A stretch of 9,758 nt of DNA, taken from the NCBI GenBank assembly GCA_021845945.1, contig JAJZRD010000140.1, positions 1 to 9,758 of the forward strand, read 5' to 3'. Positions 6,243-9,758 of the stretch are shown piece by piece. Numbering within the stretch: position 1 is the stretch's first letter; each line of letters begins with the position of its first letter. Source of the DNA: Chloroflexota bacterium. GTDB taxonomy: Bacteria; Chloroflexota; UBA6077. Both the position numbers and the translations under genes were made by a program. A model generated the notes under the pieces. The model did not search any database and was not told the origin of the DNA. It saw only the letters and a list, made by a program, of their open reading frames with translations.

Positions 6243-6593
6243 ATGGCGAAATCGAGAAAGAAGCGGCGGCAGCCGCGCCAGATCGAGACCGCGCTGCCCA
6301 AGCGACAGTACAAGCGAAACAACAGGCTGCTCTACGCTATCTCAGCGGTCCTGCTGGTGGTCTTCGGCGGCGGCGCTGCCCTGCTGGGAGCCGGCGCACC
6401 CAAGGGTCCCCCGCCGACTCCGGCACCCACGGTGGCCCCGGCTGCCAACAGCAGCGCGGCGCAGGGTAACCAGCAGCTCACCACAACCCCCATTCCCGCT
6501 CCGGCTGCGGCTACTCCGGCTCCGGCTACGCCCACCCCTGCCGCGCCCACGCAGCCCGCGGCAACTCCGGCGCAACCTACACCTGGGCAGTAG
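6243..6593 (+). CDS. Small single-pass membrane protein with Pro/Ala/Thr-rich tail
   Basis: Unrecognised protein of 116 aa. The N-terminus is strongly basic (KSRKKRRQPR, then KRQYKRNNR), followed by one membrane segment at about 29-50 (LLYAISAVLLVVFGGGAALLG). A low-complexity tail of about 65 residues of Pro, Ala and Thr with no Cys follows, built of loose PAP/TPAP units. By the positive-inside rule the N-terminus stays in the cytoplasm and the tail projects outward. The tail looks like a wall-spanning spacer or possible O-glycosylation region, but carries no recognisable functional domain. ATG at 6243 is preceded by GGGAGGGG at a good distance. It lies 105 bp after the lit-like gene, separated by REP hairpins, and converges on norZ. 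Real gene likely from the RBS and the basic-TM-tail order; function unknown. Confidence 0.65.
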   Translation: MAKSRKKRRQPRQIETALPKRQYKRNNRLLYAISAVLLVVFGGGAALLGAGAPKGPPPTPAPTVAPAANSSAAQGNQQLTTTPIPAPAAATPAPATPTPAAPTQPAATPAQPTPGQ

Positions 6594-6756: not shown

Positions 6757-6774
6757 AGGCGATGCTACGCCTCC
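6755..6774. repeat. Hairpin spanning the norZ stop codon
   Basis: Perfect 7-bp arms GGAGGCG (6755-6761) and CGCCTCC (6768-6774) with a 6-nt loop that contains the norZ stop codon. It abuts the hairpin cluster and may protect the mRNA 3' end or be the edge of the repeat insertion. Confidence 0.5.
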
Positions 6775-9137
6775 ACGACCACCGGACGCTTCCTTCGCTC
6801 CTCCTTGGGCGCCTCGCCACCGGCCGAGGGCAACTCCTCCTCGGCCTTCCGCTGGTGGAAGAAGGCAGTCACCGTGAACCAGGCCAGGGGCACGACCCCG
6901 ACCCCGATGAAGACGCTGTCGGGGAGCATCCGCGCCCACAGGAGGGCGTGGACCAGCGGCTGCTGGTAGAACTCGAAGCTCCTGGCCGACCAGAAGCCGT
7001 GGGTGAAGCTCTCCCCCACCTGCATCAACCCGATGGGCAGCAGGGTGATCAGGATCATCCCCGCCAGCCCCAGGTTCAGCCCCCAGAAGGAGATCTTCAG
7101 CAGCCGATCGCTCCACCAACGGGGGTTCACCAGGTCCCGCAGGGCGAACAGCAGCAGCCCGACGGCCAGCATCCCGTACACCCCCGCCAGCGCCCCGTGA
7201 CCGTGAGCAGCCGTCAGGAAGGAGCCATGCTCGAAGTAGTTCACCACCGGCAGGTTGATCAGGAAGCCCAGCACCCCCGCGCCGACCAGGTTCCAGAAGG
7301 AGGTGGCGATCAGGAACCAGAAGGAGGCTTTGTAGGGGAACTCCCGTCCGCCCGCCGTCACCATCCGATACTGGCCGTAGGCCTCCAGCACCAACAGGGT
7401 CAGGGGTATCACCTCCAGGGCCGAGAAGGTGGCCCCCAGGGCGATCCACATGTCCGGGGCGCCGATCCAGTAGTAGTGGTGGCCGGTGCCCAGGATGCCA
7501 CTGCCCAGCAGGATGATCAGCTGGAAGTAGAGGGCCCGCAGGGTCGATTTCCTGGTCACCAGTCCCAGCTTCACCATCAGGAAGCCGATGACCACCACGG
7601 CGAACACCTCGAACATCCCCTCCACCCACAGGTGGATCACCCACCAGCGCCAGTAGTCGGACATGGTGATGTGGGTATCAGGGTCGAAGAAGAAGCCGAA
7701 GCCGTAGAAGAAGGGGATGGCCACGGCGCTGTAGAACAGCAGGTGGGTCAGTCCGCCCCGGTCCGACTCGGCCTTCAGGGCCGGCCGCAGCCCCCGGTAG
7801 ACGATGAAGAGCCACAGCACCATCCCGACGGCCAGCAGGACCTGCCAAATCCGGCCCAGCTCCAGGTACTCCCAGCCCTGGTTGCCGAGGAGGAACCAGA
7901 GGTTGCCCAGGTAGCCCTTGGTGCCGAGCCACTCTCCCAGCAAGCTGCCCGCCACCACCAGCACCAGGGCCCCGAAGAGGAGGTCCACCAGCAGCCCCTG
8001 CCGCTTCGGCTCGCGACCTCCCACTATGGGGGCCACGAAGATCCCCAGGGCGAGCCAGGCGGTGGCGATCCAGAATACGGCCAGCTGCAGGTGCCAGCTG
8101 CGGGCGATGTTGAAGGGGAGCAGCGCCAGGATGTCCAGACCGTAGAAGCTGGAGCCGTCGGCGTAGTAGTGGGCCAGCAGGGCGCCCACCAGGGTCTGGA
8201 CCAGGAAGAGCAGGGTAACCACGACGAAGTACTTGGCCGTCTTCCGCTGGCTGGGGGTCAGCGGCGCGGTGCTCAGCTTTAGGGCCTTTGCCGCCTCTGG
8301 GTTCCCCTCCATGTGCAGCTGGTAGCGGTGGTAGAGGAAGAGGATCACCGCGACGAACAGCACCAGCAAGGTGACGCTGATAGCGCTCCAGATCACCGAG
8401 CTGAAGGTCAGGGTGTTGCCCGCCGAGGCGTCGAAGGGCCAGTTGTTGGTGAAGGAGAAGTTGAGGCCGGGCCGGTCCACGGTGGAGAGCCAGGCGGTCC
8501 AGGTGAAGAAGTCGGCGATCTGCTGGATCTGGTCGCCCGGTGCGACGTAGGCCCGGTCGGTGGCGGGCATGTGCTGCTCCTGGATCAACTGCGGGGGCAG
8601 CGCCCGGTCCGGATCGCCCTGGGTGAACAGCTGCCGGTAGTGGGCCCGCACCTGCTCCAGTCCATAGGCTTGGGCTGCGGTGAAGGTCAGGGTGCCGGTG
8701 GTGGGGTCGTACCGGTTGGACTTCAGATCCGTCTGGACCTTCGCCGTGATGCCAGCCTGCTGCTCAGCGTTCAGTTTGGCAAAGCCGGCGCCATACTGAG
8801 CGCGAGCGTAGTAGTCCTGCATGGAGAGGGTCATGACGTGGAGACTATCGGCGGTGAAGTCGGGCCCCAGGTAGGAGCCGTGGCCCAGGGTGGAGCCGTA
8901 GTCCATCAGGTCGTACTTCTGGTAGACGGCCTTCCCGCCGGTGATCTCTTGGCCGGTGAAGAGAAGCTTACCGGACGGGTCGACGATCCTGGCGGGGATA
9001 GGGGCCTCGTCTCGATAGACGGCGAAACCTCCCATGATGAGGCCGGTAAAGCCGAGGAGGAGCACCAGGATGAGGGCGTGCTTCCAGAGACCGGCTCCTC
9101 CCTTCTGCGGGTTCGCGCGGGCAGCGGTGACAGCCAT
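6765..9137 (-). CDS. norZ: Quinol-dependent nitric oxide reductase, single subunit
   Basis: Membrane haem-copper-oxidase relative of 790 aa (also called qNor or NorB) that reduces NO to N2O with electrons from quinol. An N-terminal membrane segment (about 20-40) is followed by an extracytoplasmic domain (to about 245) resembling NorC but without any CxxCH haem motif. The catalytic part with about 12-13 helices follows. Seen ligands: H349 (ARSWHLQLAVFW) and H647 for low-spin haem, H645 for haem b3 (TAAHGHGALAGVYG), H502, H553 and H554 for the non-haem iron (HLWVEGMFE, GTGHHYYW), with E506 and E510. The His pair and Glu argue against NO dismutase. At the quinol site H323 and D740 are kept, but D327 stands where Geobacillus qNor has Glu. 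ATG at 9137 has GGGAGG 7 nt upstream. It acts in NO detoxification or denitrification; no other denitrification gene is visible here. Confidence 0.95.
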   Translation of the reverse strand: MAVTAARANPQKGGAGLWKHALILVLLLGFTGLIMGGFAVYRDEAPIPARIVDPSGKLLFTGQEITGGKAVYQKYDLMDYGSTLGHGSYLGPDFTADSLHVMTLSMQDYYARAQYGAGFAKLNAEQQAGITAKVQTDLKSNRYDPTTGTLTFTAAQAYGLEQVRAHYRQLFTQGDPDRALPPQLIQEQHMPATDRAYVAPGDQIQQIADFFTWTAWLSTVDRPGLNFSFTNNWPFDASAGNTLTFSSVIWSAISVTLLVLFVAVILFLYHRYQLHMEGNPEAAKALKLSTAPLTPSQRKTAKYFVVVTLLFLVQTLVGALLAHYYADGSSFYGLDILALLPFNIARSWHLQLAVFWIATAWLALGIFVAPIVGGREPKRQGLLVDLLFGALVLVVAGSLLGEWLGTKGYLGNLWFLLGNQGWEYLELGRIWQVLLAVGMVLWLFIVYRGLRPALKAESDRGGLTHLLFYSAVAIPFFYGFGFFFDPDTHITMSDYWRWWVIHLWVEGMFEVFAVVVIGFLMVKLGLVTRKSTLRALYFQLIILLGSGILGTGHHYYWIGAPDMWIALGATFSALEVIPLTLLVLEAYGQYRMVTAGGREFPYKASFWFLIATSFWNLVGAGVLGFLINLPVVNYFEHGSFLTAAHGHGALAGVYGMLAVGLLLFALRDLVNPRWWSDRLLKISFWGLNLGLAGMILITLLPIGLMQVGESFTHGFWSARSFEFYQQPLVHALLWARMLPDSVFIGVGVVPLAWFTVTAFFHQRKAEEELPSAGGEAPKEERRKRPVVVEA

Positions 9138-9254: not shown

Positions 9255-9311
9255 CCGATGGGAGGAAATCTGCAGAGTCGGGAGGGCGAAGCACTGGCCG
9301 TGAAGCCAATT

Positions 9312-9351
9312 GGGCGAAGCATTCGGCTGCGGCCAAATGCTTCGCCCCTAC
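9312..9351 (-). repeat. REP hairpin whose GTAG foot contains the transposase stop codon
   Basis: Arms at 9312-9327 (GGGCGAAGCATTCGGC) and 9332-9347 pair at 15 of 16 positions with a TGCG loop. On the minus strand GTAG (9348-9351) stands directly 5' of the hairpin, and TAG of this GTAG is the stop codon of the transposase gene. A decayed partial copy (GGGCGAAGCACTGGCC) lies just outside at about 9285-9300. Confidence 0.8.
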
Positions 9352-9758
9352 GGCTGCGCGCGGTGGGGATGCAGCTCGTCCAGCTCCCAGCGCAGGGGAT
9401 TGCCGGCGATGTACTCTCGGATCTCCTCGAGAGAGCGCTCGTTGCGGATCACGTGGTCGTAGTAGTTCCGCTGCCAGACGGCGTCCCCGGGAGTGTCGCT
9501 CAACTGGTTGAGCCTGCGAGTGGAGATCGACTTGAAGTTCTGGACGATAGCACCGATGGAATTCGGCTGGGTGCCGTGCGCTCGTCGCAACTGTAGGGGC
9601 GAAGCATTCGCCGCAGCGAATGCTTCGCCCTTGGTGGCCCTACCATCCGCAGCGAATGCTTCGCCCTTGGTGGCCCTACCATCCGCAGCGAATGCTTCGC
9701 CCTTGGTGGCCCTACCATCCGCAGCGAATGCTTCGCCCTTGGTGGCCCTACCATCCGC
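9348..9758 (-). CDS. REP-associated tyrosine transposase (RAYT, IS200-like), 3' part
   Basis: The frame is open from the right edge to the TAG at 9348, giving the last 136 residues; the start and the HUH nuclease motif lie outside the window. The C-terminal 70 residues are diagnostic: SIGAIVQNFKSISTRRLNQL, TPGDAVWQRNYYDHVIRNER, then IREYIAGNPLRWELDELHP. In this family the two Tyr of NYYDH lie in the catalytic helix region. RAYTs cut and join single-stranded REP DNA and are thought to spread REPs. Upstream of the conserved part lie at least four exact copies of a 12-residue unit, ADGRATKGEAFA, in the variable loop between the two conserved halves, then AANASPLQ encoded by a REP hairpin. The frame is kept because the unit is 36 bp. 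No stop or frameshift is seen in the visible part, so the gene may be intact. Confidence 0.8.
   Translation of the reverse strand, partial: ADGRATKGEAFAADGRATKGEAFAADGRATKGEAFAADGRATKGEAFAAANASPLQLRRAHGTQPNSIGAIVQNFKSISTRRLNQLSDTPGDAVWQRNYYDHVIRNERSLEEIREYIAGNPLRWELDELHPHRAQP
9593..9630 (+). repeat. Perfect REP hairpin inside the transposase coding sequence
   Basis: GTAG (9593-9596) is directly followed by arms GGGCGAAGCATTCGC (9597-9611) and GCGAATGCTTCGCCC (9616-9630), a perfect 15-bp stem with a CGCA loop. It is nearly identical to the REP at 9312-9351 but in opposite orientation. It is translated in the transposase frame. Confidence 0.88.
9613..9758. repeat. 36-bp direct tandem repeat, four exact copies plus start of a fifth
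   Basis: Units at 9613-9648, 9649-9684, 9685-9720 and 9721-9756 are identical; two bases of a fifth unit end the window. Each unit joins an 18-bp half-REP (GCAGCGAATGCTTCGCCC) and an 18-bp spacer (TTGGTGGCCCTACCATCC). On the minus strand it encodes ADGRATKGEAFA in the transposase frame. Identity between copies points to recent expansion, or to an assembly collapse or expansion at the contig end. Confidence 0.93.

Follow-up and report, generated by a model that had tools for sequence, protein, structure and literature searches.

The window, the whole stretch of 9,758 nucleotides that was analysed, ends inside a RAYT (TnpA_REP) gene. With a probability of roughly three in four, this is the C-terminal half of a RAYT of the subclass 2.4 type, whose disordered linker, joining the HUH half to the alphaC helix, carries a REP of the enzyme's own type with one arm amplified in tandem in steps of 36 bp. 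The features of the region are the following:

9348..9758, minus strand: C-terminal 136 aa and stop codon of the RAYT/TnpA_REP gene (open frame, protein relatives, Pfam match)
9351..9476, minus strand: catalytic C-terminal part, from WQRNYY via YIAGNP to the final residue (frame translation, Pfam match)
9504..9560, minus strand: alphaC helix region SIGAIVQNFKSISTRRLNQ, which is proposed to recognise the REP (classes and columns from relatives)
9593..9630, plus strand: intact GTAG-tagged REP hairpin in the coding linker, 15-bp stem (9593-9632 folds at -21.2 kcal/mol, z -8.06)
9611..9758, minus strand: 36-bp tandem array, 4.1 perfect copies, coding for (ADGRATKGEAFA)n (tandem-repeat search)
9308..9354, minus strand: further REP hairpin with a GTAG tag, at the gene's 3' end (fold -19.7 kcal/mol, z -6.09)

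In the direction of the protein, ADGRATKGEAFA comes first in four copies, followed by a short bridge, the alphaC helix and the C-part of the Y1 transposase. The 5' part of the gene, with the HUH half, is located beyond the window end, which falls inside the linker. The Pfam family PF01797 (Y1_Tnp) was matched over residues 66-118 with an E-value of 1.5e-4 and 22.3 bits, narrowly missing the curated cut-off of 23, and several of the full-length relatives retrieved by protein search carry the source names RayT or REP-associated transposase. Both results agree with the RAYT family assignment made in an earlier note on this DNA. Elsewhere in the window, positions 6765-9137 of the minus strand encode a NorB-like nitric oxide reductase of 790 aa, which was matched in 7 of 400 genomes of an Anaerolineae MAG's phylum, at 47% identity in the best of the long matches, and a small 15-bp tandem repeat is present at 6499-6529 within an Ala/Pro-rich frame (6243-6593).

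The core of this finding has already been described, since the window, as far as its own features go, fits the account of TnpA_Y1 subclass 2.4 in the accessible text of Quentin 2018 (PMC6006769). That text reports in-frame REPs inside tnpA_REP, generally between HUH and Y, and presents them as both unique to the subclass and predominant in it. In the window, WQRNYY and YIAGNP of the Y1_Tnp core are found in frame, the frame stops 15 residues past YIAGNP without a conserved C-terminal extension, one REP hairpin lies within the open frame upstream of the Y part, and the GTAG hairpin at 9308-9354 flanks the gene on its 3' side. As in the published account, GTAG-tagged, double-foot REPs occur both beside the gene and in frame within it, and the linker is variable in length and sequence. 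For a REP, a position within the RAYT gene is usual in subclass 2.4 and no special event. What differs is the 36-bp array of half-REPs, which the accessible sections of PMC6006769 do not describe (the word "tandem" occurs 0 times in the main text); "short repeats" found with MEME are mentioned there (Fig. S6). The strong tandem growth is thus the variant part. We found no tandem half-REP linker in the literature searched; more may be contained in Figures S6 and S10 of PMC6006769.

Other known systems are more distant. The E. coli TnpA_REP (PDB 4er8) differs in that E. coli REPs have a bulged stem, according to the accessible part of PMC8266576, and its chain of 165 residues would leave no room for a linker as long as that of the window. 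The TnpA proteins of the IS200/IS605 family (IS608, ISDra2) act on hairpins at the IS ends, as stated in the text available of PMC6006769. Di Nocera 2013 (PMC3733652), in its accessible portion, reports REPs that supply stop codons to flanking ORFs. The window resembles these intragenic REPs in that REP DNA is translated and TAG stops derive from GTAG, the TAG stop codon of the RAYT gene coming from the GTAG of the REP at 9308-9354. However, the REPs of that account lie in scattered host genes, many of them for DNA synthesis or repair, whereas in the window the REP lies in the transposase's own linker.

As the earlier note had stated, the frame remains open over the 36-bp units (array 9611-9758, 100% matches, minus frame of 136 aa), and the dodecapeptide ADGRATKGEAFA is read four times in the minus frame 9348-9758. 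Each unit is made up of a single REP arm, the loop and a degenerate GTAGGGC tag; the description of the unit as half a REP arm has to be corrected, as each unit holds one whole arm, that is, half a REP. A complementary arm is available to the last unit only, and the linker hairpin at 9593-9632 has its GTAG tag on the strand opposite the RAYT gene. The relation of the repeat to REPs was supported by this 15-bp GTAG hairpin and by a shuffle test. When up to 2 mismatches are allowed, the window has 8 occurrences of GCGAAGCATTCG, all of them inside 9286-9736, and 0 of 200 shuffles reached 8 (mean 0.88, largest 4). Farther afield, 0 of 400 genomes from the phylum to which an Anaerolineae MAG belongs contained the 22-mer of the unit (one mismatch allowed), no viral contig contained its exact 27-mer, and a search of plasmid DNA gave no match. 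Viral contigs searched for P0002 gave one pattern-matching stretch, which encoded no relative. Among the 294 fetched proteins, 0 contained ATKGEA or the dodecapeptide of the window; this and the missing 22-mer count against the preferred reading.

An array that is perfect and reaches the last base of the window, as here, would also result if the assembler had looped through a short repeat at the end of the graph, the units being absent or fewer in the cell. Yet the array passes in frame through the intact REP into the RAYT C-part, an arrangement typical of the relatives, and comparable linker tandems sit in the middle of open frames holding both HUH and Y (L018, L028, L037, L072, L096), those of L028 and L072 being half-REP arrays. 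Also, a genuine array exceeding the read length would presumably break the contig at the same place. We consider an assembly artefact improbable.

The open frame across the array was rejected as stand-alone evidence. At least three of the six frames are open there (9348..9758 and 9500..9757 on the minus strand, 9493..9756 on the plus strand), and the case for the window array therefore rests on homologues. The same openness is compatible with decay, in which a 5'-truncated or inactive RAYT would adjoin an ordinary intergenic REP amplification that is open by chance. The window copy may indeed be broken, because its HUH half lies outside the window. Decay is also favoured by P0001, the nearest relative among the protein-search matches, which has just 79 aa and begins right after the linker position, and by extragenic tagged arrays whose period is not a multiple of three, for example the tandem array of 23-bp period upstream of the RAYT ORF of L027. 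A tag array with 18-bp spacing was likewise seen upstream of the RAYT ORF of L002, outside the gene. Against decay, the C-part of the window is conserved and uninterrupted by stops, with WQRNYY and YIAGNP in place, and in 79 of 80 homologous loci the HUH and Y motifs, identified by motif, share one open frame across the linker. Decay of the copy is judged rather unlikely, and the linker of an in-frame RAYT remains our preferred reading of the array.

These loci were the best 80 of 555 relatives' genome loci, a sample biased towards the query alignment, which had been picked from matches with mostly REP-like linkers; L039, where the HUH motif was not found, was left out of the counts, which leaves 79. 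The comparison of linkers with REPs proposed in the earlier note, when run on these relatives, showed that homologous linkers carry REPs. The GTAGGGGC palindrome, with variable inner bases, was present in most sampled linkers, and its tag in 74 of 79. Counted on both strands over stop-to-stop frames, GTAGGGGC tags numbered 148 per 14.9 kb in the linker, 35 per 26.9 kb before it and 27 per 11.8 kb after it. Inverted repeats were measured as perfect arms with loops of up to 60 in the HUH-to-W stretch. Arms of at least 8 bp were found in 77/79 stretches and arms of at least 12 bp in 47/79, against 16% and 0.2% after synonymous recoding (20 recodings per linker) and 12/79 and 1/79 in N-part controls of the same length. 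The palindrome was better than all 20 of its own synonymous recodings in 63 of the 79 linkers.

The peptide encoded by this DNA is far less constant. The first sense tag was in frame 0 in 35 linkers and in frame 1 in 24, and the frame that would give a TAG was used in 0 of 59; among 117 proteins of the QN helix class (QN before F), the linker motif was GEAF-like in 78 and GAKH-like in 16. Linker constancy is thus at the DNA level and not at the peptide level. In the structure model of P0002, the linker is predicted to be disordered (pLDDT below 50 at 97-105 and 107-123) and alphaC corresponds to the helix 131-150. A further REP-like peptide (GEAF ... NASP) occurs between alphaC and WQRNY in P0089 and P0285, where the protein apparently has a second permissive site, and residues 66-70 of P0010 (RGEAV), upstream of the HUH motif, are possibly half a REP.

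Tandem growth was also concentrated in linkers. At the DNA level it was detected in 10 of 98 linkers vs 3 N parts and 1 C part, the 98 including duplicates (L110 repeats L011, and L112 has the gene of L020). The periods ranged from 12 to 24 bp and were multiples of three in 10/10 cases; for flanking arrays this was so in 13 of 23, a count that includes the L091 row, a run of N. At the protein level, tandems were present in 22 of 280 linkers and in 0 N or C parts; this set excludes 14 of 294 proteins without motifs (5 of 294 for the C-part comparison) and includes matches to a repeat-rich query. A search for longer relatives, with 120 of its 131 matches listed, also yielded expanded linkers, for example in P0273 and P0212. 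P0212 has about three copies, with a 32-aa period, of a segment that starts in the linker and continues into alphaC. L095 and L096, identical at 214 of 235 aligned residues, have linker repeats that differ by 24 aa; the repeat is GVTN, with no obvious REP arm, and represents a natural length polymorphism. Provided that the sequence is correct, the window array has a period of 36 and at least 4.1 copies, which makes it one of the longer cases of the same kind, not a unique one. The earlier suggestion of a REP taken up as coding sequence and amplified later agrees with this picture, as tandems are found repeatedly in the linkers of complete genes that do not lie at contig ends.

The multiples of three in all ten linker tandems would also be expected if the repeat peptide itself were selected as a flexible or interacting linker. 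However, an open frame imposes multiples of three regardless, the linker is predicted to be disordered, and more than one frame is used to read the same DNA, as the GEAF-like and GAKH-like motifs illustrate. Selection for the repeat peptide, which we regard as highly improbable, was rejected on account of the two reading frames in use. Survival of the units in frame, by itself, does not call for such selection either.

Within the stem of the in-gene REP, the variable part seems to track alphaC better than it tracks other parts of the enzyme. When stem type was assigned from alphaC in leave-one-out cases with core identity below 50%, it was right in 23 of 38, compared with 5/38 for N60, 3/38 for C40 and at most 13/38 for windows of equal length; 4 of the 74 typed loci, which had no clean 19-aa alphaC, were left out. 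The rule was weaker in a second set (L087-L116, 30 loci, of which 11 had no parsed ORF and 5 of the 19 ORFs no tag), with 9/14 right, or 7/12 once two repeats of training genes were removed, two of these seven successes being near-identical relatives. The window fits: its alphaC, SIGAIVQNFKSIST, resembles the class with in-gene REP GAAGC, with Q and N at columns 6 and 7 as in that class. Because the variable inner stem goes with the alphaC type, the in-gene REP is probably the cognate REP of the enzyme. We found no such alphaC-to-REP rule in the literature searched, Figures S6 and S10 of PMC6006769 again being places that may hold more. The part of the earlier claim that the loop is built from the enzyme's own target DNA which stands is that the REP is of the type expected for this enzyme, given the homologous linkers, the alphaC class GAAGC and the accessible text of PMC6006769; self-targeting by the RAYT is unproved.

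Copies of the same REP type often occur outside the gene. Tags outside the ORF were present at 54 loci, and at 34 of these the most frequent inner pentamer of the in-gene REP also occurred outside the ORF, whereas 5000 permutations gave a mean of 4.4 and a maximum of 13; the other 20 of the 74 loci had no outside tag in the DNA examined. Genome-wide counts covered five stem types in 36 genomes out of those of the 80 loci. Where the fetched RAYT carries the stem type, 15 of 20 genome-type pairs exceeded the in-gene copy count, and in the other 5 (L002, L034, L053, L072, L079) the REP was only inside the RAYT gene, so that these cases do not show a REP spread through the genome. Where it carries another type, 36 of 160 pairs had any copy. 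The L064 genome (G029) has 101 GTATT-type tags with a fetched RAYT carrying GAACG, and the L047 genome has 111 copies of GACCG with a fetched RAYT of another type; such large non-matching sets are presumably served by other RAYTs.

These data bear on whether the in-gene REP has a function, the RAYT regulating itself through its own gene or mRNA, or enzyme and cognate substrate travelling together. The superiority of the palindrome over every recoding in 63/79 linkers and the confinement of the REP to the RAYT gene in 5 of 20 cases would favour it, as would P0017 and P0056, whose C-parts are 86% and 79% identical to that of the window, yet whose helix class and REP type both differ. However, a recent or repeated insertion would likewise preserve the palindrome, and the mosaic comes from two proteins only, while P0001, with a C-part 83% identical, has the helix class of the window. 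A more specific proposal is that the built-in recognition hairpin and alphaC change together as one specificity cassette, and that half-REP amplification would multiply in-gene binding sites and feed back on expression or mobility. As far as its accessible text goes, PMC2817692 reports that RAYTs coevolve with flanking REPs. The introduction of PMC8266576 names the recognition of perfectly palindromic REPs by group 3 TnpA_REP as an unresolved question, which the paper partly resolves. In the experimentally studied enzymes shown in the accessible part of that paper, none of the window's kind, the sequence of the upper or whole stem had little or moderate weight, and the tag, the bulge, the loop and single lower-stem positions mattered. 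These findings count against the preferred reading as well. The odds of both proposals were set slightly lower because of the P0001 helix class and these binding data. Judged from sequence comparison, a function of the in-gene REP is possible but doubtful, and the cassette is a tentative idea that we hold to be unlikely.

For the preferred reading, a subclass 2.4-type RAYT with its own REP in the linker, we propose the following course. The linkers of the sampled relatives hold a GTAGGGGC-tagged palindrome that is kept as an inverted repeat of DNA in spite of differing reading frames; it may have arrived by RAYT-mediated insertion or by common descent. On statistical grounds, its variable inner stem goes with the alphaC type, and it is probably the cognate REP. 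Tandem half-REPs would then result from the misalignment of REP arms in replication or from reuse of the repeat when the RAYT cleaves and rejoins DNA. Slippage with retention of multiples of three is the likeliest account of the tandem duplication of one arm; within the gene, only lengths divisible by three would survive. The linker would tolerate such growth because it is unstructured.

The tandem of the window is a coding region able to grow, in steps of three, by copying DNA that is the substrate of the transposase it encodes. If the cassette idea were true, the RAYT gene would label its own DNA specificity. If the in-gene REP names the substrate, many genomes would provide enzyme-substrate pairs without experiment, and a code from helix to hairpin would be directly testable.
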